Shown piece after piece: positions 50,205-64,000 of a stretch of 64,000 bases of DNA (position 1 is its first letter; each line of letters begins with the position of its first letter). The DNA is taken from NCBI RefSeq assembly GCF_913774235.1, contig NZ_CAJYDW010000017.1:310001-374000 (forward strand), given 5' to 3'. The translations under genes and the position numbers were made by a program. The DNA comes from an uncultured Pseudomonas sp. GTDB lineage: Bacteria > Pseudomonadota > Gammaproteobacteria > Pseudomonadales > Pseudomonadaceae. The notes below the pieces were generated by a model. The model saw nothing but the letters and a program-made list of their open reading frames with translations, did not search any database and was not told where the DNA came from.

Positions 50205-50220
50205 CTGTATATATAGACAG
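50205..50220 (+). promoter_or_regulatory. LexA (SOS) box of umuDC
   Basis: CTG-TATATATAGA-CAG matches the consensus CTG-N10-CAG, with an almost perfect A/T centre. It sits 23 nt upstream of the umuD ATG. LexA would repress umuDC until RecA is activated by DNA damage. Confidence 0.9.
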
Positions 50221-50242: not shown

Positions 50243-50674
50243 ATGTCCGTTACCGTCCTGGGTCCGCTGGAATCTTCGGCGATCCAGTTGCCGCTCTACG
50301 ATTTCCGCCTGCCGTGTGGCTTCCCCTCGCCGGCCCAGGATCATCTGGAGCGCCAGGTATCGCTGGACGAACTGGTCGACCTGCGCGCGCCCCACACCTA
50401 CGTCATTCAGGTCAGTGGCGACAGCATGACCGGCGTGGGCATCTTTCCCGGTGACCTGGTCATCGTCGACCGGGCGCGGCCAGCGCGGGTCGGCGACATC
50501 GTGGTGGCGGTGCGCGACCGCGAGCCCACCCTCAAGCGCCTGGGCCGGCGTGGCGCGAATTTCGTCCTGCTGGCGGAGAACCCGGCTTACGCGCCCCTGG
50601 TCATCGGCGAGGGTAACGACTTCGAGGTCTGGGGCGTGGCCACCCACAGTCTGCGGCGCTTCGGCCATGGCTGA
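50243..50674 (+). CDS. umuD: Translesion-synthesis accessory protein UmuD
   Basis: A 143-residue S24-family protein. The Cys25-Gly26 cleavage bond is in RLPCGFPSPA, catalytic Ser61 in GDSM and Lys98 in TLKRL. RecA-stimulated self-cleavage gives UmuD', which partners UmuC as DNA polymerase V. AGGAG precedes the ATG at 50243. It overlaps umuC by eight bases. Confidence 0.93.
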   Translation: MSVTVLGPLESSAIQLPLYDFRLPCGFPSPAQDHLERQVSLDELVDLRAPHTYVIQVSGDSMTGVGIFPGDLVIVDRARPARVGDIVVAVRDREPTLKRLGRRGANFVLLAENPAYAPLVIGEGNDFEVWGVATHSLRRFGHG

Positions 50675-51938
50675 GTCGATCCTGGCGCTGATCGACTGCA
50701 ACTCCTTCTATTGCAGCTGCGAACGGGTCTTCCGTCCGGATTTGGCCGAGCGGGCGGTGGTGGTGCTCTCCAACAACGACGGTTGCGTGATCGCCCGTTC
50801 GCCCGAGGCCAAGCGCCTGGGCATCGCCATGGCCGCGCCCTGGTTCCAGGTGCGCGAGCTGGCGCAACAGGGCCTGGTGACCGCCTTCAGTTCCAACTAC
50901 GCCCTCTACGGCGACCTCAGCGACCGGGTCATGCGCACCCTGGCGACCCTGGTGCCGCGCCTGGAGCGCTACAGCATCGACGAGGTGTTCGCCGATCTCG
51001 CCGGTCTGCCCGAGCCCCTGGATGCCCTCGGTCACCGGCTGCAGGCGCGGGTGCAGAAATGGACGGGCATCCCGGTCAGCGTTGGCATCGCCGGCACCAA
51101 GACCCTGGCCAAACTGGCCAATGCCGCGGCCAAGCGCTGGCCGCAGCGGACCGGTGGGGTGCTGGATCTGCGCGATCCGACGGTGCGGGAGTGGGTCCTG
51201 CGTCATTCGCCGGTGGACGACGTCTGGGGCGTCGGGCGACGCCTGGCGGCGCGGCTGCGGGCGGATGGTGTGACCACCGCCGGGGAGCTGGCGCGCCAGG
51301 ATGCCTGGTCGCTGCGGCAGAGATACAGCGTGGTGCTGGAGAAGACCGCCCGCGAGCTGCGCGGGCTGGCCTGCCTCGGCCTGGAGGAACTGGAGGCGCC
51401 ACGGCAGACGATCTGCAGCAGTCGCATGTTCGGCCGGCGGCAATACCAGTTCGGTGCCCTGGCCGAGGCGGTGGCCAGCTACACCGCCCGCGCCGCGGAA
51501 AAGCTGCGGGCCCAGGGGGCGCTCTGCCGCGCCCTGAGGGTCAGCATCCAGACCGGCATGCATGGCGCCGACGAGGGACGTTACGCCAACGCCAGCCTGC
51601 TCAATCTGCCTGTGCCCAGTGACGATACCCGGGTGCTCAACGACTACGCCCAGGCCGGCCTGCGCGAGATCTTTCGCGATGGCTTCGGCTACGCCAAGGC
51701 AGAAATCCTGTTGCTCGATCTCTGTCCGCGCGAGGCACTGGCCGCCGATCTCTTCGCCACGACGCCGGACCCCGCCAGCACCCGGCTGATGGCGACTCTG
51801 GACGCCATCAACGGCAAGTTCGGTCGCGAGACCCTGAGACCTGCGCGCATCCCCCGCGATCCGGCCTGGCAGATGCGCCGCGACCTGCTCAGCCCGCGCT
51901 ACACGACCCGCCTCGATGAACTCTGGACAGTCAGCTGA
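50667..51938 (+). CDS. umuC: Error-prone DNA polymerase V catalytic subunit UmuC
   Basis: A 423-residue Y-family polymerase. Catalytic residues are in LALIDCNSFYCSC (Asp10) and RYSIDEVFADL (Asp and Glu). A helix-hairpin-helix follows, VWGVGRRLAARL, and the little-finger domain is complete, followed by the UmuC C-terminal extension. The ATG at 50667 overlaps umuD. It works with UmuD' in translesion synthesis under SOS control. Confidence 0.94.
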   Translation: MAESILALIDCNSFYCSCERVFRPDLAERAVVVLSNNDGCVIARSPEAKRLGIAMAAPWFQVRELAQQGLVTAFSSNYALYGDLSDRVMRTLATLVPRLERYSIDEVFADLAGLPEPLDALGHRLQARVQKWTGIPVSVGIAGTKTLAKLANAAAKRWPQRTGGVLDLRDPTVREWVLRHSPVDDVWGVGRRLAARLRADGVTTAGELARQDAWSLRQRYSVVLEKTARELRGLACLGLEELEAPRQTICSSRMFGRRQYQFGALAEAVASYTARAAEKLRAQGALCRALRVSIQTGMHGADEGRYANASLLNLPVPSDDTRVLNDYAQAGLREIFRDGFGYAKAEILLLDLCPREALAADLFATTPDPASTRLMATLDAINGKFGRETLRPARIPRDPAWQMRRDLLSPRYTTRLDELWTVS

Positions 51939-56717: not shown

Positions 56718-56759
56718 GGGCGAAGGGAATCGAACCCTCGTCATGAGCTTGGGAAGCTC
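56718..56759 (-). other. Attachment site: 3' half of a tRNA-Gly(CCC) gene
   Basis: On the minus strand the segment reads as an anticodon stem-loop GAGC-TTCCCAA-GCTC (anticodon CCC), the variable region ATGAC, a T-arm GAGGG-TTCGATT-CCCTT and the start of the acceptor 3' strand (CGCCC). The 5' part and the acceptor partner are missing, and flanking bases do not pair. It is thus a fragment, not a functional tRNA. Integrases commonly use the 3' part of tRNA genes, and one is encoded 150 nt away. Confidence 0.72.
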
Positions 56760-56909
56760 TACCACCTGCTATCTCAATCCATCTCTCTTGATTCCAGCCT
56801 GACTCGAAAGCCTTGTAGAATGCGGGCTTCGTGCAAGGTCGCGGGTCTGGGGTCGTCTCAGCGGGTCTCACCTTGTTTCAGGCCAACTGTCACCAGGAAC
56901 TGTCACCAG

Positions 56910-58106
56910 ATGCTCACCGAACGGCAGATTCGCGCGCTCAAGCCGCGGGAGAAGGACTATGTCACCTCCGATGGCCGCGGCGCGCGGGGGGAGGGGGTGT
57001 TGGTGCTCAAGGTGCGGCCCAGTGGCACCAAGGAGTTCTATTTCCAGCGCCACGTGGGTGGGGCGAAGAAGCTGACCAAGCTGGGCAACTGGCCGGAGCT
57101 GTCCCTGACCCAGGCGCGGGATAAATGCCGGGCGGAGGCCGAGGTGCTGGTGACGGCCGGGACCTTCCAGGAGTTGCTGTCGGCCTATGTGGCCAAGCTG
57201 GAGGGGGAGGGCGCGGCCTCGGCCGGTAACGTGGCCTGGTCGTTCCGCCATTACGTCAGCGAGCCCTTTCCGGAGCTGGTGCGACGGCCGGCGGCGCTGG
57301 TGGGGCCGGCGCAGATCCGCGACATCCTCAGCCGCATGATCGACCAGGGCGTGACCACCTATTGCAACCGGTTGAGATCCCAGCTGCATGCGGCCTTCCA
57401 GGTGGGGTTGGAGCAGGAGTACAACCCGCGCAGCTATCTTCAGGTGAAGGTGCGCTTCGGTCTGCAGAGCAATCCGGTGGCGAGCATTCCGGTGCAGGAG
57501 GATTGGGAGCAGCCGGGCGACCGGGCGCTGTCGAAGGCGGAATTGCGCACCCTGTGGCAACTGCTGCCGGAGCAGCTGTCCCTGACCACCGCCGAGCTGA
57601 TTCGCTTCCTCATCGCCGCCGGCGGGCAGCGGCCGGAGCAGTTACTGGCGTCGGAGCGGGCGCTGTACCAGGACGATCACCTGGTGATCCGCAGCACCAA
57701 GGGGCGGGTGCAGGGCGAGCGGCAGTTGCATGTGGTGCCCTTCAATGCGCCGATGCGCCAGGTGTTGCAGACCATGGCGGAGATCGATGCTCAGGGCGCC
57801 TATCCGTTCCAGGGCCGGGTGCCGGGGCAGCCGCTGAATGTGCAGTCGTTGTCGCGGGCGGTGACCAATCTCTATCGCCGCCATGCCGCGGCGTTCACCG
57901 CGCCCTTCACCCTGCGCGACCTGCGGCGGACCTGCAAGACGCTGATGGCCAGCGCCGGTCTGAGTAAGGAATTGCGCGATCGAATCCAGGGCCATGCCTT
58001 CAACGATGTCTCTTCCAAGCACTACGACCGCTACGACTATTTCGCCGAGAAGCGCGCCGGCCTGGAGATCTGGGCGGACTGGTTAGAGAAACACATCATC
58101 CACTGA
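56910..58106 (+). CDS. Tyrosine-recombinase integrase (prophage)
   Basis: A 398-residue phage integrase with an N-terminal DUF4102-like arm-binding domain (MLTERQIRALKPREKDY... cut) and a catalytic domain. Catalytic residues are Arg241 (GGQRPEQLL), Lys264 (STKG), Arg339 in TLRDLRRT (box II, with Arg336 where His is common), His362 (QGHAF) and Tyr372 (KHYDRYDYF). It inserts and excises the prophage at the tRNA-Gly att site next to it. The ATG at 56910 has AGGAA upstream; the frame is open to 56820. Confidence 0.88.
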   Translation: MLTERQIRALKPREKDYVTSDGRGARGEGVLVLKVRPSGTKEFYFQRHVGGAKKLTKLGNWPELSLTQARDKCRAEAEVLVTAGTFQELLSAYVAKLEGEGAASAGNVAWSFRHYVSEPFPELVRRPAALVGPAQIRDILSRMIDQGVTTYCNRLRSQLHAAFQVGLEQEYNPRSYLQVKVRFGLQSNPVASIPVQEDWEQPGDRALSKAELRTLWQLLPEQLSLTTAELIRFLIAAGGQRPEQLLASERALYQDDHLVIRSTKGRVQGERQLHVVPFNAPMRQVLQTMAEIDAQGAYPFQGRVPGQPLNVQSLSRAVTNLYRRHAAAFTAPFTLRDLRRTCKTLMASAGLSKELRDRIQGHAFNDVSSKHYDRYDYFAEKRAGLEIWADWLEKHIIH

Positions 58107-58114
58107 ACGCTGCT

Positions 58115-58318
58115 TCAGGCCGCACCGTCGGCATTCCAGCGCATGGGGTCGACCTGCCAGGCGGCGATCGCCGATTCGCGCCAGCCGACGCGGCCGGCGC
58201 TGAGGTTCACCGGGCTGGGGAACTGCTTGGCCTTGATCGCCCGCCAAAGGGTGGCGCGCGACAGGGAGGTGACCCGCAGCACCTCGTCCTCGCGCAGGAA
58301 TCTATCCAGTTGGGTCAT
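58115..58318 (-). CDS. AlpA-family regulator (excisionase-like)
   Basis: A 67-residue protein with the MerR-like AlpA helix-turn-helix FLREDEVLRVTSLSRATLWRAI (residues about 7-28), then KQFPSPVNLSAGRVGWRESAIAAW. AlpA proteins activate integrase expression or serve as excisionases. It is convergent with the integrase gene, nine bases away, and last of the minus-strand early genes. Confidence 0.85.
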   Translation of the reverse strand: MTQLDRFLREDEVLRVTSLSRATLWRAIKAKQFPSPVNLSAGRVGWRESAIAAWQVDPMRWNADGAA

Positions 58319-58404: not shown

Positions 58405-61242
58405 TCATGCCGGACTCCGGCTGGCCGGGCGGCCATGTTCGGCGGGGCTGTAGTGCGGATTGGCGAACACCCAGCAGCGCACCTTGTCCGGGCGGTCTTC
58501 CAGCGGATTGCGCTGTTTCTGCAGGGCGCGGATGCGGCTGGTGACCACCTTGTTGTCGATGAATCTGAATTGGCGGCTGTCCTTGAGCAGTTCTCTCAGG
58601 GTGCCGAGGTCGGCCAGGCGCTGGCGGTGCTCGGCGGCGCGCTCGACGAATTCGTTGAGGTTGATGGCGATCTCCCAGCCGTGGAGGCTGTGGTTGACCA
58701 CCGGGTCGCCGCTGAGCGACTGCAGGTAGTCGTAGACCTGCCAGAACTCGACGACCGCCGGGTGATCGGCGCTGATGGCCGCCTGGCGCTCCAGGGCGAT
58801 GCGCACCAGGGCGCGCTGGGTCTCGGCCACCATGCCCGGTGGCAGTTCCACCACCAGGCCCAGGCCGTCGAGCAGGGCCAGCAGCATGGCGTGGTTCTTG
58901 ACGATACGTTCGATGCGCAGGTGGCCGACCAGCTCGTTCTGGCAGCTGCGGCAGCGGTGCTCGTTGGCCGCGAGCGGGGCGCCGCAGCAGAAGCAGTTGT
59001 CGCCCAGCCGGCGCAGCTTGCTTTCGTAGCGGGGAAAGGCCTCGTGGAACAGCGCCAGCACCTCGGCTTCCCGGCGGGTGGCCAGCAGCAGGAAGTGGCT
59101 GAGGGCGGCGCCGTCCATGCGGCTCAGGCTGTCGGCGGCGGCGCGGCTGGCGTCGGTCAGCACGGGGCGGGTGAAGTGCAGCTTCACGATCCGCGTGAGG
59201 ATGGCCTCGGAAGCGCTCACCGGGGCGTTCTGGCTGATGGCGATGGTGCCGCGGAAGGGCGGTTCGTAGGTTTCGTTGCCGGCGGTCTTCATGCCGCGGG
59301 TGCGCAAGGTACCGCCGCCGAAGAAGTCCTTGAGTTCGTCCCAGTCGAAGCTCTTGGCGTGGGCCTTTTCCGGGTCGTTGCGGTCACCCTCGATGAGCAC
59401 GATGGGCATGCCGGCGACCTGACCCATGGCGCGGCTGCGGCCGGCGGTGGAGGACTTGGACGGGTCGAAGCCCTCGTAGCCGGCGCGGCCGAACAGCTTC
59501 CAGAGAAAGGTCAGCAGGGTGGTCTTGCCGGCGCCGGCCTCGCCGGTAGCTTCCAGGAAGGGGAAGGACTGGTAGCGGGCGCGCAGCTGCTCGGCGAATA
59601 GCGAGCCGAACCAGAAGGTGAGGGCGGTCAGGCCATTGCTGCCGAAGCAGGTCCACAGCAGCGGCAACCAGTCGTGGCGGTAGTCGCCGGCGGCCGGGTT
59701 GGGCTTGAGGCCGATGGTCTTCTGCAGGGTCTTGAGGCGCAGCCGGCCGAAGTCGAAGTAGTCCTCGTCGTTGACCCGGTGCAGTTGGCCATCGCGCACC
59801 GCCAGGTCGCCGAAGACGTAGCAGCCGTGCTCGCGGCTGTAGCCGACGTAGTCGATGGTCTCCACGGTCTTCAGGCCGAACAGCTGGTCCTTCATGATCT
59901 TGTCCAGCTGGGTGCCAGTGCCGGTGAAGACGGCGCCGGCGGCCATGCCCAGCAGGCGTTTCTTGAATTCGCTGGCGGCGGCGACCTGGGCGCCGGTGAA
60001 GGTGTTCTTCACTGCCGGACCGTCGTGGGGGAAGTCGACGCGGAAGTAGTACCAGGATTCGTCGGTGATCTCGTTGCGCTGGAAGTACAGCGCCTGGGGC
60101 GCGCAGTTGGCGATCTCCACCACGTTGCCGGCCAGGCGCATGGCCTTGTCGCGCTGCTGCTGGCTAGTGAGCTGGCGATCCTCGTCGCGCTCGGACTCCT
60201 CGAGGTGGGTGAGGGCCTTGTTGTACTTGTCCAGGTCGAGCTTGAACCAGTAGAGGCGATTGTCGAAGGTGAAGTGGAATTCGTGGCGCTCGCGCCATTC
60301 GTAGAGCAGCACGGCCTTTTCGCTGGCGGTCTCGGCCAGCAGCAGGGCGCCGTGGTGGCGGGCTTCGGCCAGGTCGCGTTCGCGTTGTTCGGCGCGCGTC
60401 GCCGCCTCGGGCTCGAAGGCCCAGCGCTGGTGCAGGTCGTTCCAGTCGACCTTGCGCCCGGGCTGGGGGATCTGCGCGGCGGTGCAGGGGTAGCCCAGCG
60501 CCCGCGCCTGGCGTACCCAGCGGCGGGTGTAGCGCTGGGCGCCGGGTTCGTTGTCCAGCGCCCAGACCAGCCGGGGCAGGCGACCGCCGCGCAGCCGCGC
60601 CAGCTCCTGCAAGGACTCTTCCGGATAGGCGTTGCTGCTCATTGCCGAGACGGTGGCGAGGCCGTGGTGGCGCAGGGCGATGGCGTCGAAGATGCCCTCG
60701 ACGATCCACAGTTCCTCCACCTGCAAGAGGTCCAGGTCCGGCGGGCACCACCAGACACCCTTGTAGCTGGCTCCGGGCTGGAAGCGGGCCTTCTGCTTGC
60801 CGAAGCGCGCCGGGCGATCGATCAGCCGTTCCCAGTAGCCGCCCTTGGCCAGCGGGAAGCGCACCGTGGCCGAGCCGATGCCTTGGGCGCGGTCCCAGTA
60901 GGTTTCCTGGCTGTACCAGCCCCTGATCAGGCCCAGGTCGAAGCCGCGGGCGAATTGCAGGTAGCCGTCGGCGCTGGCGGCCGGGGCCGCGGCGCTGGGC
61001 TTGAAGCGCTCCGACCAGTCGTCGAAGAGATCGGCGAACAGCTCCTTGACGTGCCAGCTCTGGCCGCACTTAGCCTCGCGACCGCACTTGACCACCCAGG
61101 GGGCGTCGTAGTCGGTGAACAGCTCGCGTTGGTGGCAGGCCGGGCATTCGCCCTTGCGCAGGTAGTGGGTGCCGGGGCTGAGCTTGAGGCCCAGCTCGCG
61201 TTCGAGGCGTGGCAGCAGGTCGGCGCGCAGTTGCGGGTCCAT
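58405..61242 (-). CDS. Phage primase-helicase (toprim, zinc finger and AAA/DUF5906-like)
   Basis: This 945-residue protein starts with a zinc-finger primase-type segment (CPAC...CGREAKCG, residues about 34-62), then a toprim domain (LWIVEGIFDAIALR, near residue 184, with ALDNEPGAQRY), a central region, a P-loop ATPase (GEAGAGKTT, near residue 566) and a late zinc ribbon (CFCCGA...CRSCQ, near 750-775). It probably primes and unwinds prophage DNA. The start at 61242 has a weak ribosome site. A small ORF ends 11 nt upstream, so all belong to one early operon. Confidence 0.85.
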   Translation of the reverse strand: MDPQLRADLLPRLERELGLKLSPGTHYLRKGECPACHQRELFTDYDAPWVVKCGREAKCGQSWHVKELFADLFDDWSERFKPSAAAPAASADGYLQFARGFDLGLIRGWYSQETYWDRAQGIGSATVRFPLAKGGYWERLIDRPARFGKQKARFQPGASYKGVWWCPPDLDLLQVEELWIVEGIFDAIALRHHGLATVSAMSSNAYPEESLQELARLRGGRLPRLVWALDNEPGAQRYTRRWVRQARALGYPCTAAQIPQPGRKVDWNDLHQRWAFEPEAATRAEQRERDLAEARHHGALLLAETASEKAVLLYEWRERHEFHFTFDNRLYWFKLDLDKYNKALTHLEESERDEDRQLTSQQQRDKAMRLAGNVVEIANCAPQALYFQRNEITDESWYYFRVDFPHDGPAVKNTFTGAQVAAASEFKKRLLGMAAGAVFTGTGTQLDKIMKDQLFGLKTVETIDYVGYSREHGCYVFGDLAVRDGQLHRVNDEDYFDFGRLRLKTLQKTIGLKPNPAAGDYRHDWLPLLWTCFGSNGLTALTFWFGSLFAEQLRARYQSFPFLEATGEAGAGKTTLLTFLWKLFGRAGYEGFDPSKSSTAGRSRAMGQVAGMPIVLIEGDRNDPEKAHAKSFDWDELKDFFGGGTLRTRGMKTAGNETYEPPFRGTIAISQNAPVSASEAILTRIVKLHFTRPVLTDASRAAADSLSRMDGAALSHFLLLATRREAEVLALFHEAFPRYESKLRRLGDNCFCCGAPLAANEHRCRSCQNELVGHLRIERIVKNHAMLLALLDGLGLVVELPPGMVAETQRALVRIALERQAAISADHPAVVEFWQVYDYLQSLSGDPVVNHSLHGWEIAINLNEFVERAAEHRQRLADLGTLRELLKDSRQFRFIDNKVVTSRIRALQKQRNPLEDRPDKVRCWVFANPHYSPAEHGRPASRSPA

Positions 61243-61253
61243 GGAGTAGCGGC

Positions 61254-61475
61254 TCAAGGGTTCACCTGTGCATCCGCGGTGAGCTCCCGTACCAGGCGCA
61301 GCGCACCCTGAGGCTGGCGCTCGGCGTCGTGGGCGAGGATCTGGAAGCTGCGGGCGATTTCGCGTAACTGGGCGCAGCTGTAGGCCTGCTGCACCTGCAG
61401 CAGGGGCAGGTTGAAGACGATCCGCGGCGGCTGCTGCGGATCGCGGATCAGGGTGACATCGAGGCACAGCTTCAC
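61254..61475 (-). CDS. Small prophage protein, unknown function
   Basis: A 73-residue protein (MKLCLDVTLIRDPQQPPRIV...), no family recognised; it has QAYSCAQLREIARSFQILAHDAE, a helical stretch. The start overlaps the stop of the 81-residue gene (ATGA), and the primase gene begins 11 bases past its end, which supports co-translation. Confidence 0.6.
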   Translation of the reverse strand: MKLCLDVTLIRDPQQPPRIVFNLPLLQVQQAYSCAQLREIARSFQILAHDAERQPQGALRLVRELTADAQVNP

Positions 61476-61794: not shown

Positions 61795-61992
61795 TTAGCG
61801 GCTGGAAGGGCGCGTGGGTGCTTCGATCAGGGCGGCGGAGATGTCCGCCACCGGGATGCGATAGCGCTGGCCGTGCGGGTCGACCAGTACCAGATGGTCG
61901 GCGCTGCTGGCGGCCAGGTCGAGCCAGGGGCCCTGTGGCTGGGTGTCACGTCGGCGGCGAAAGCCGGCAGGGGGCAGGTCGTGGCGGGTCAT
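61795..61992 (-). CDS. Small prophage protein, unknown function
   Basis: A 65-residue protein; MTRHDLPPAGFRRRRDTQPQ, then a beta-rich HLVLVDPHGQRYRIPVADISAALIEAP. Its ATG (61992) overlaps the Ogr/Delta stop (ATGA). No family recognised. Confidence 0.55.
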   Translation of the reverse strand: MTRHDLPPAGFRRRRDTQPQGPWLDLAASSADHLVLVDPHGQRYRIPVADISAALIEAPTRPSSR

Positions 61993-62285
61993 GGCGTGGG
62001 CTCCTCGAGCGGATCCAGTAGGTCTTTCTGGTTGCTGGTCATGCGGCTGGCCTGGGTGGCGGCGCGCTTGAGCTTCGAGGGCGCCAGCGGCAACACCAGG
62101 CGCGGTGCCTCCAGTCCCGAGGGGCTGAGCTGGTAGTCGATGGTCTGGGTACCGCCGAAGGTGGCGCCGCACGCCAGGTTCTTGCACTGGTACCAGAGCG
62201 AGCGGAAGCAGGGGGTTTCACCCTTGCTGCAGCGGATCACCAAGGGGCCGTTGCAGGCGGGGCAGACCAGACGGAATTCACTCAT
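61989..62285 (-). CDS. Ogr/Delta-family zinc-finger transcription activator
   Basis: This 98-residue protein has the Ogr/Delta zinc finger: CPACNGPLVI near residue 8, then WYQCKNLACGATFGGT (residues about 29-44), i.e. CxxC...CxxxxC. P2 Ogr and P4 Delta activate late promoters of P2-like phages by recruiting RNA polymerase. The C-terminal part (LSPSGLEAPRLVLPLAPSK) is an extension. ATG at 62285. This is a marker of a P2-like late-gene programme. Confidence 0.85.
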   Translation of the reverse strand: MSEFRLVCPACNGPLVIRCSKGETPCFRSLWYQCKNLACGATFGGTQTIDYQLSPSGLEAPRLVLPLAPSKLKRAATQASRMTSNQKDLLDPLEEPTP

Positions 62286-62405: not shown

Positions 62406-62633
62406 CTAGGGGTGATCGATGACGACCACGGATGGCTCCGGCTTGATACCGAGCAACACCGCACTGCGGTGAGCCTCGCCGCGCAGGCACTTCTTCTGCC
62501 CGTTCAGTACCGCGTAGACGGTGCTGGGGCTGAGTTGGTGGCGCAGAGCGAACTCCTTGACGGAAATACCCTGCATTTCCAGGCGTTTTCGCGCCTCTTT
62601 GCAGGCTTGCTCGGTGGCATAGGTGTCGGCCAT
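62406..62633 (-). CDS. Phage HTH regulator (BcepMu gp16-like)
   Basis: A 75-residue protein with a helix-turn-helix (about 20-55: ISVKEFALRHQLSPSTVYAVLNG) resembling the BcepMu gp16 family. It is divergent from the repressor gene, and would be the Cox/Cro-like first gene of the early operon. It likely opposes the repressor at the shared operators. Confidence 0.72.
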   Translation of the reverse strand: MADTYATEQACKEARKRLEMQGISVKEFALRHQLSPSTVYAVLNGQKKCLRGEAHRSAVLLGIKPEPSVVVIDHP

Positions 62634-62715
62634 AGTTCACATTCGTGTGATTTCAAGTGATTAAGGTGAACCATATTCAACGTTTGTTGGATAGTCAATC
62701 GCCTAAGAGAGGCTT
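62634..62715. promoter_or_regulatory. Divergent immunity/early control region
   Basis: The 82-nt interval between the early operon and the repressor carries two dyads: TCACA-TTCG-TGTGA (62637-62650) and CAAC-GTTT-GTTG (62678-62689). Both are placed to act as operators of back-to-back promoters controlling lysogeny. The stretch is A+T-rich, unlike the surroundings. Confidence 0.6.
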
Positions 62716-63063
62716 TTGTTGAAAATCGGTGATCGATTACGGCTTGAGCGCCTCCGGTTGGGTCTGAACCAGGCCGATTTCGCGGCCTTGGCGGGCGTGA
62801 CCAAGACCAGTCAGTTCAACTACGAGAAGGGTGAGCGCAGTCCGGATGCCAACTACCTGGCGGCCCTCCAGCCCCACGGCGTGGACATCCACTTCGTCAT
62901 CACCGGCGAGGCGCTGCCCGTGGCCGAGTCGGCGCTCTCCAAGGTTGAGACGGAGCTGCTCGGCTACTTCCGGGGGATGTCCGAGACCAGTCGCGATGCG
63001 GTGCGCCGGATGGCGTTCGCCATGGCGGTGGCCGACGGCGCGTTGGATACGGGAGCGCAGTAG
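62716..63063 (+). CDS. XRE-family phage repressor (Helix-turn-helix)
   Basis: A 115-residue protein with an N-terminal XRE helix-turn-helix (residues about 5-58: RLRLERLRLGLNQADFAAL... and SQFNYEKGERSPD) and a C-terminal helical part without S24 protease. The start is TTG (62716, or 62719), with AGAGAGG upstream. It is divergent to the early operon, the normal position of a CI/C-type repressor. The lack of a self-cleaving domain means SOS induction must work otherwise, for example through the next gene. Confidence 0.8.
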   Translation: MLKIGDRLRLERLRLGLNQADFAALAGVTKTSQFNYEKGERSPDANYLAALQPHGVDIHFVITGEALPVAESALSKVETELLGYFRGMSETSRDAVRRMAFAMAVADGALDTGAQ

Positions 63064-63154
63064 GGCGCTGGCCTGCTAGGAAGTTGCGTAGGCTTGGCAA
63101 GCTTTTGCACAGCTACGACGAGAAGCACTTGGCGATCCGCATCACAAAAATGTA

Positions 63155-63170
63155 CTGTATTCGTATACAG
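63155..63170 (+). promoter_or_regulatory. LexA (SOS) box in the prophage
   Basis: CTG-TATTCGTATA-CAG matches the LexA consensus CTG-N10-CAG perfectly, with CTGT...ACAG arms. TTGGCG (63129-63134) could be a -35 with a -10 near 63153-63158, overlapping the box. The box is 22 nt before the ATG of the 73-residue gene, which would be SOS-inducible. Confidence 0.85.
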
Positions 63171-63191
63171 TGTTTTTGGAGCCGGCGACCG

Positions 63192-63413
63192 ATGGAACAG
63201 GCGCGTTTGACATTTCTATGGCATGAGCGACAACCGGTGCTGCTACCCACTCGCTTCGAGTTGGAGCTGGTACAGGCGTTTCGTCAGCTGTCCTGCGACG
63301 ATCAGGCGATGCTCTGCCGCCTCGCCAATAGCCTGGTGCAGGTAGAAGGCCCCTTGCCGCCCCGCATCGATCAGCCAGTCGCCGCCCCACGCTTTCTGCC
63401 CCGTCCGCACTGA
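63192..63413 (+). CDS. SOS-box-controlled prophage protein (possible antirepressor)
   Basis: A 73-residue protein without recognised family, MEQARLTFLWHERQPVLLPT then RFELELVQAFRQLSCDDQAM. GGAG precedes the ATG at 63192. It sits 22 nt after the perfect LexA box, just downstream of the non-cleavable XRE repressor. By position it resembles Tum of phage 186, a LexA-controlled antirepressor, but shows no visible sequence likeness; its function is inferred only from context. Confidence 0.7.
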   Translation: MEQARLTFLWHERQPVLLPTRFELELVQAFRQLSCDDQAMLCRLANSLVQVEGPLPPRIDQPVAAPRFLPRPH

Positions 63414-63514: not shown

Positions 63515-64000
63515 TCAGCTCAACGGCTTGGTCGTTCCCTGGCGCTCCTCGATCTTCTTGGCCTCGCGCTCCACGGCCCTGAGCGCCGCTTCCTTGCTCG
63601 CATAGAGAAAGCGCAGGTGGTAGGGGTTGCTCTGGTCGCCCTGGGTCAGGCTGACCTGCTTGCCGGTCGCCGGATCCCGGTAATAGGCCAGCACGCCGCT
63701 GTACTTGGGCGGCACCTCGGTGACCAGGTCCGCGATTAGATCCTCCGGCTGCCTGGCCTGCAGGCCGCTGAGTTCGGTGACGAAGCCGCCGTCCGCGCTC
63801 AGGCTGTGCTTGATATCGCCGCCGTACCAGATGATGTCGTCGATCTCCGGCTTGATGCCCGTCAGGGTGTAGCTGAGTTCCGGGATGAGGTCGGCGCAGC
63901 CGAGGGCCAGGTGGTAGGAGAGGGTGGCGGCGCCGCGCTGCAGACTCTGCCATTCCGTCTCGGCCGCCTGGTGCGCCTGGGTTTTGTTGGCATAGGTGTG
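63515..64000 (-). CDS. Phage late control protein gpD / tail protein (C-terminal part)
   Basis: Only the C-terminal 161 residues are in the window, reading from HTYANKTQAHQAAETEWQSL through LTGIKPEIDDIIWYGGDIKHSL to the stop at 63515. The pattern (H)TYANKTQA.RAA..EW..LQRGAA and GIKPEID are typical of the P2 gpD tail protein. The reading frame continues beyond position 64000. In P2, gpD is the last gene of the tail operon. It is convergent to the SOS-box gene, with about 100 nt in between. Confidence 0.82.
   Translation of the reverse strand, partial: HTYANKTQAHQAAETEWQSLQRGAATLSYHLALGCADLIPELSYTLTGIKPEIDDIIWYGGDIKHSLSADGGFVTELSGLQARQPEDLIADLVTEVPPKYSGVLAYYRDPATGKQVSLTQGDQSNPYHLRFLYASKEAALRAVEREAKKIEERQGTTKPLS

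Follow-up and report, generated by a model that had tools for sequence, protein, structure and literature searches.

LexA-controlled antirepressors that bind non-cleaved phage repressors are established (PMC3121763). Among them, GfoA, GfhA and GftA of the Salmonella Gifsy prophages are described as small LexA-controlled proteins which bind non-cleaved repressors and free the operator, and two repressors that differ in their operators are both targets of GfoA and GfhA (PMC3121763). In Bacillus subtilis, the small protein SinI binds the XRE repressor SinR, breaks its multimers and releases the DNA (PMC6123443). Here, a stretch of 64,000 nucleotides (nt) from an uncultured Pseudomonas sp. (contig NZ_CAJYDW010000017.1 of assembly GCF_913774235.1; hereafter the window) was analyzed, whose right end is the interior of a P2-like prophage carrying an XRE repressor (P0003) followed by a 73-codon gene (product P0002) under a LexA box. 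Because the small protein resembles the tail end of this repressor, it probably wakes the prophage by pairing with and disabling it. On the sequence evidence, P0002 is thus probably a SinI-like decoy that would be released by LexA upon DNA damage, pair with the C-terminal domain (CTD) of the repressor and end lysogeny.

An earlier note on this DNA had reported an exact LexA consensus 22 nt upstream of a small gene of no known family, next to an XRE repressor without a self-cleavage domain. The match is exact, as CTGTATTCGTATACAG shows no mismatch to CTGTATN4ATACAG and is the sole exact site in the window; the box does lie upstream of the gene, but the measured gap to the ATG is 21 nt. The repressor also proved as described, with matches to helix-turn-helix (HTH) families, no match to peptidase S24 and a length of 115 amino acids (aa). 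The whole genome (5.13 Mb) holds 4 exact sites, and 44 sites with at most two mismatches versus 19 for a reversed control pattern; two of the other three exact sites precede open reading frames (ORFs) that resemble, by eye, ImuA and a radical-SAM protein. A search for homologues in other prophages, which the note had suggested as a check, found 17 loci with the gene, and the box stands in the same place at all 17, in agreement with its placing of the gene under LexA. These do not represent 17 independent events because several of the loci are close relatives. They contain nine distinct box sequences, in which 10 of the 12 half-site positions never change, the other two each show a single change and each of the four centre positions is variable. 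Upstream of 16 aligned homologues, little is conserved except TTGGCGA, TCAC and TGTACTGTAT-N4-ATACAGT. An SOS promoter before the 73-residue gene was not reported by a general promoter scan. The locus thus has two features of LexA-controlled prophage antirepressors, namely a LexA operator, as judged from sequence, at the promoter of the small gene and a partner repressor without a self-cleavage domain; for a third, binding of the repressor so that its operator is freed, the covariation with the CTD described below lends indirect support.

The tum gene of phage 186, also a P2-like phage, likewise has a LexA box over a -10 element TACTGT with an 18-nt spacer (annotated promoter p95), and Tum is annotated as inhibiting DNA binding by CI. 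The two systems differ in that the phage 186 repressor CI has 192 aa and tum lies about 6 kb from cI. No local alignment of P0002 with Tum was obtained by BLASTP at E ≤ 100. A Tum counterpart at the same position was rejected on account of this distance and the missing alignment. Tum is described as a 146-aa protein with a DinI-like half (PMC3121763). Of the SOS-switch reading in the earlier note, the pairing, in a P2-like prophage, of a LexA-boxed gene with a repressor that cannot be cleaved therefore stands, but neither the position equivalent to that of Tum nor the description of an unrelated-looking protein could be upheld, the latter because the small protein matches the repressor CTD as detailed below.

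The 73-codon ORF (plus stop) is a real coding gene, since comparison with eight close homologues gave low nonsynonymous (dN, 0.10-0.12) relative to synonymous divergence (dS, 0.41-0.58) and codon position 3 holds 528 of the 833 pairwise differences. As claimed earlier, the product belongs to no family in Pfam (no match at E ≤ 1) or NCBIfam, and two weak PHROG matches are of unknown function (E 0.018 and 0.068); assignment to a known family was rejected on these grounds. No HTH family was found for P0002 in profile matches, and tblastn against 50,697 phage records gave no match to it. Family members are 32-86% identical to P0002 and share 12 invariant columns. The gene is present in eight viral contigs; three further viral loci (L026-L028) were reached via the repressor. 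Among 398 genomes of the bacterial family, tblastn detected it in five, all of the same genus as the window. A repressor search in 13 genomes of this genus gave matches in nine, six at least 53% identical and three weak (31-37%), and box and gene were found in all six of the former, the sixth having been missed by tblastn. A homologue also occurs in Pseudomonas rhizoryzae. In L026 (5222-5365) and L028 (5337-5480), the LexA-boxed ORF is followed by another CTD-like small ORF, which is shorter (47 aa).

SinI resembles the C-terminal domain of SinR, and P0002 likewise resembles the CTD of its own repressor. To our knowledge, SinI/SinR is neither a phage system nor LexA-controlled. A profile of 66 distinct repressor CTDs was tested on 14 members of the small-protein family, nine of them mutually close (81-86% identical to P0002, or P0002 itself), together with 7,000 shuffled sequences; 13 of the 14 scored above all shuffles, as did all 14 with a whole-repressor profile. 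Alignment of 14 small proteins with 69 repressors by hhalign gave 96.1% (score 51), compared with 20.5% (score 23) for the best of 200 column shuffles and 0.3% (score 11.9) for the reversed profile. The alignment pairs residues 11-57 of the small protein with residues 64-112 of the repressor and includes the linker, whose consensus contains ERxP. AlphaFold models predicted that both form a two-helix hairpin: in the small protein (14 sequences; mean predicted local distance difference test, pLDDT, 74.5, with about 90-97 at residues 21-50), the helices span 11 and 16 residues, and in the repressor CTD (69 sequences; mean pLDDT 89.4), 11 and 17. With the repressor model, Foldseek placed SinR of the SinR/SinI entry 1b0n at rank 6 (E 1.9e-3, 106 columns). 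As for membership of the SinI family itself, P0002 has no Pfam match at E ≤ 1 and no SinI chain occurs among its three PDB sequence matches at E ≤ 10; PDB sequence searches with two small-protein profiles gave weak, unrelated matches only. A recent duplication of the end of the repressor gene was also considered and is unsupported, with a mean likeness of 35.2 for the small protein and CTD of the same locus versus 35.0 for mixed pairs. In the Burkholderia phage Mana (L100, 7034-7603), the single chain of the 189-aa immunity repressor contains two weak matches to a CTD-like hairpin, as if a repressor and a decoy-like domain were fused.

Across the sequences compared, the small protein covaries more strongly with the repressor CTD than with the DNA-binding domain. 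In 61 pairs, the distances between small proteins correlated with those between CTDs at r 0.70 and with those between HTH domains at r 0.44 (partial correlations 0.69 and 0.41, each above all 2,000 permutations), and at 40 loci where the HTH-nearest and CTD-nearest partners differ, the small protein resembled that of the CTD-nearest partner more closely at 31 and that of the HTH-nearest one at 9. A controlled comparison that included gpD and the Cro-side gene, for which 52 of the 58 viral pairs could be used, gave a raw r with the small protein of 0.73 (CTD) and 0.41 (HTH domain). The partial r between CTD and small protein given the HTH domain, gpD and the Cro-side gene was 0.63, with none of 1,000 permutations as high, while the other partial values were 0.25 (HTH-small), 0.16 (gpD-small) and 0.00 (CTD-gpD). 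These correlation tests remove kinship only partly, and the HTH domain is less variable than the CTD. The putative operator, as deduced from inverted repeats, follows the DNA-binding domain instead. At 58 of 58 loci the inverted repeat before the repressor tracks the recognition helix, KTSQFNYEKG going with an ATTCAAC-type repeat (44 loci), KN[ST]QYNYEKG with a TTTCCC-type repeat (7 loci) and KNTQLAYEKG with a GGTCC-type repeat (7 loci); L086 and L092 have a common CTD and small-protein type and different operators. A repressor operator at the promoter of the small gene was rejected, as none was seen by eye in 50 loci.

Repressor and small ORF form a wider family of pairs. A CTD-like small ORF on the same strand downstream of the repressor was found at 71 of 80 viral loci with related repressors (of 1,385 downstream ORFs, an initial search at E ≤ 1e-3 picked out 45, and iteration raised this to 73), and two of the nine loci without one are contigs ending within 1 kb. 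In bacterial genomes, 16 of 30 loci searched with a 1.5 kb flank have such an ORF, 6 of 6 in the genus of the window and 10 of 24 outside it, and such an ORF is also present in the isolated phage Dobby (E 4.9e-5), whose annotation lists it as a hypothetical protein of 38 aa. The box precedes the small gene at 10 of the 80 viral loci, namely where the repressor reaches 69% identity or more (L029, which would make eleven, is truncated), and at 6 of the 30 genome loci, all in the genus of the window. When whole loci were scanned at a threshold of 10 of 12 half-site positions, exact boxes were found beyond these ten in L044 and L055, before umuD-like ORFs, and weaker sites in L055, L080 and L081, none of them before the small ORF. 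An alignment of 51 small ORFs without a LexA box matched the repressors at 96.0% (best of 200 column shuffles, 6.6%) and with the SOS family at 96.2%. No Pfam model reached the cut-off for ten small proteins, of which two come with a LexA box and eight do not, nor did any Pfam or NCBIfam family for the related small proteins tested; the best PHROG match of the ten was phrog_23693, of unknown function (E 4.8e-5 at best). In tblastn with two other small proteins, one gave weak Microbacterium phage matches that were judged to be chance and the other gave nothing. Within about 130 nt before the small ORFs, many of the loci without a LexA box have, by eye, a GGTGGCAC word and a GC-rich hairpin, and another such group has GTTATGGTCA...CTGCCATTAACGGAGT in the same region; these elements may be inputs of the small genes concerned.

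The conserved LexA box, the CTD similarity and the CTD-biased covariation constitute the sequence-level part of the decoy model, and the likeness to the repressor CTD suggests a concrete mechanism. In the lysogen, the XRE repressor would dimerise through its C-terminal hairpin and keep the early promoter closed at an operator of the TTCAAC-N4-GTTGAA type, while LexA would keep the promoter of the 73-residue gene closed. After DNA damage, LexA would be gone and the small protein would be made. As a predicted stand-alone C-terminal hairpin, linker included, it would then pair with the repressor CTD where a second repressor would otherwise sit. Such a mixed complex would let go of the operator, and with the early genes expressed the prophage would exit lysogeny. 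A decoy partner is likely the simplest use of what is probably the pairing half, without the DNA-binding half, under a LexA box.

Several results weigh against this model. The HTH domain carries signal too, because its partial r of 0.41 given the CTD exceeds all 2,000 permutations, and the raw correlations of the Cro-side gene (0.60) and gpD (0.57) with the small protein are considerable; part of the covariation therefore reflects shared descent. The small protein of L027 scored below one shuffle with the CTD profile. The hairpin motif is short and is also carried by two proteins that look unrelated and belong to other families of the class, so the similarity alone could be convergent. The small protein and CTD of the same locus are no more alike than mixed pairs, and any duplication must hence be old. 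Structural comparison gave a root-mean-square deviation of 11.1 for the 1b0n match, in which a second aligner paired only residues 3-68, and Foldseek with the model of the SOS protein returned a single match (E 3.5). In the wider family, the small ORFs without a LexA box had been picked for CTD likeness, unlike the SOS family, and their match to the repressors is thus partly circular. At 53 other viral loci, no LexA box was found within 200 nt before the small gene (best site 8 of 12 positions or fewer in 53/53), and at 24 genome loci of other genera, scanned for CTGT-N8-ACAG only, none was found downstream of the repressor, three lying inside repressor genes.

Covariation, moreover, cannot tell antirepression from corepression and suits any direct partner. 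The small protein might accordingly be a corepressor or modulator that joins via the CTD to form a complex which still binds the operator or binds others, so that induction is delayed or shaped in the manner of Mor and CI in TP901-1; there, the CI-MOR complex is described as repressing a promoter (PMC7250872), and Mor is termed an antirepressor in a record with corepressor among its keywords (PMC11149083). We consider this unlikely, since LexA control beside a non-cleavable repressor points to relief of repression and no HTH family was detected in the small protein. The recurrence of the hairpin motif in two unrelated-looking proteins, and the umuD-like gene with its own box that adjoins in four relatives, would fit an SOS gene without a role in immunity, for example a modulator of cell division or RecA, that hitch-hikes beside the repressor and owes its CTD likeness to a common helical motif. 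The column-shuffle control, the position of the gene and the covariation make such a passenger improbable. Crosstalk of the kind described for FsoA and Gifsy-2 (PMC3121763) would allow the protein to act in trans, with the repressor of a different prophage or an XRE regulator of the host as its target instead of the adjacent repressor. This is quite improbable given the covariation with the neighbouring CTD over both 61 and 52 pairs and the pairing downstream of the repressor at most viral loci. Finally, a chance match that leaves the gene outside LexA control is very improbable: although this is a single site, and shuffling the window 100 times gave a mean of 0.42 sites with at most two mismatches and two or more in 7 of the shuffles, the box recurs at every locus with the gene, with a variable centre and over conserved -35 and -10 elements.

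The principles behind the preferred decoy model are already known singly: Tum and GfoA are antirepressors under LexA control, and antagonists of the SinI type have been described as well. In the titles and abstract openings of the literature searched, the combination of a LexA-controlled SinI-like decoy with a wide paired-gene family was not found, and none stated a phage antirepressor mimicking the CTD of its own repressor, subscription literature being mostly outside this scope. The Gifsy antirepressors, likened here by description, differ in that their complex was sized as A2B2 (PMC3121763). In the TF-smORF modules of vibriophages, small proteins are also described as inactivating phage repressors, but independently of SOS (PMC10432266). 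PDB entry 9iaq, released in 2026, is by its title a small antirepressor of an arbitrium phage and could show a similar device.

Because repressors of this kind are unable to self-cleave, the prophage needs another way to sense damage, and the gene described here offers a testable answer in the form of a proposed decoy akin to the domain through which the repressor itself probably pairs. The P2-like prophages of Pseudomonas and its relatives may well have a two-part immunity, in which the DNA-binding half and the operator evolve as one unit and the C-terminal half and the stand-alone decoy as another, with the promoter of the decoy serving as an exchangeable input port for LexA in this genus and for other signals elsewhere. 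The similar small genes at the viral loci, mostly without a LexA box, predict the same decoy with other triggers in related prophages and open a search for what wakes them.

Features of the prophage immunity region and its surroundings (window coordinates)
Feature	Coordinates	Strand	Basis
LexA box CTGTATTCGTATACAG, overlapping the -10 element	63155..63170		exact; conserved half-sites, variable centre over 17 loci
-35 like element TTGGCG, 18-nt spacer to -10	63129..63134	+	TTGGCGA in 16/16 aligned loci, spacer 17 in some
-10 like element TACTGT, overlapped by LexA box	63153..63158	+	read by eye
GGAG, possible ribosome-binding site, 10 nt before ATG	63178..63181	+	read by eye
SOS gene, 73 aa, P0002, proposed decoy antirepressor	63192..63413	+	ORF, homologues, codon statistics
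SOS gene part, residues 11-57, aligned with repressor residues 64-112	63222..63362	+	hhalign 96.1%, predicted helices 21-31 and 35-50
XRE repressor, 115 aa, P0003; HTH domain about residues 1-66, C-terminal helices 76-86 and 90-106	62716..63063	+	HTH-type matches, predicted structure
Repressor C-terminal helical hairpin, proposed decoy target	62941..63033	+	prediction, hhalign, covariation
Probable repressor operator TTCAAC-GTTT-GTTGGA over divergent early promoter-like site (62698-62670, - strand)	62676..62691		inverted-repeat class common to 44/58 loci with the same recognition helix
Tyrosine integrase	56820..58106	+	residues from 56910 on searched
AlpA-type excisionase/regulator	58115..58318	-	family matches
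Phage primase/helicase	58405..61302	-	family matches
Ogr/Delta zinc finger, late activator of P2-like phages	61989..62285	-	family matches
Small HTH protein, early side	62406..62633	-	phrog_925
gpD (tail, late control D), runs past window	63515..64000	-	PF05954, E 3.9e-10

The prophage reads from left to right as integrase, AlpA-type regulator, primase, Ogr/Delta zinc finger and small HTH gene, followed by the divergent XRE repressor, the LexA box, the 73-aa gene and gpD on the opposite strand. Its P2-like (Peduoviridae) nature, as the earlier note had proposed, is evident from gpD, gpU, sheath and gpV together with the Ogr/Delta activator. Past the window edge, P2-type tail genes follow, with Pfam matches for seven of the eight ORFs tested, including gpD, gpU, the tail chaperone, sheath, fibre and gpV; an 872-aa ORF at the tape-measure position had no Pfam match at E ≤ 1e-5. 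Just before the integrase, positions 56720-56770 resemble, on visual reading, the 3' portion of a reverse-strand glycine tRNA gene and are a possible attachment site; no whole tRNA was reported there by ARAGORN. To the left of the integrase, the only further site of the window with at most two mismatches to the LexA consensus, CTGTATATATAGACAG (50205-50220), lies ahead of an ORF judged umuD-like by eye and of a Y-family polymerase (PF00817) at 50243-51938. A boxed umuD-like gene also lies within about 4 kb of the prophage repressor in L044, L055 and four relatives (L018, L019, L027 and L107), and in these four it follows the SOS gene as a second boxed gene.
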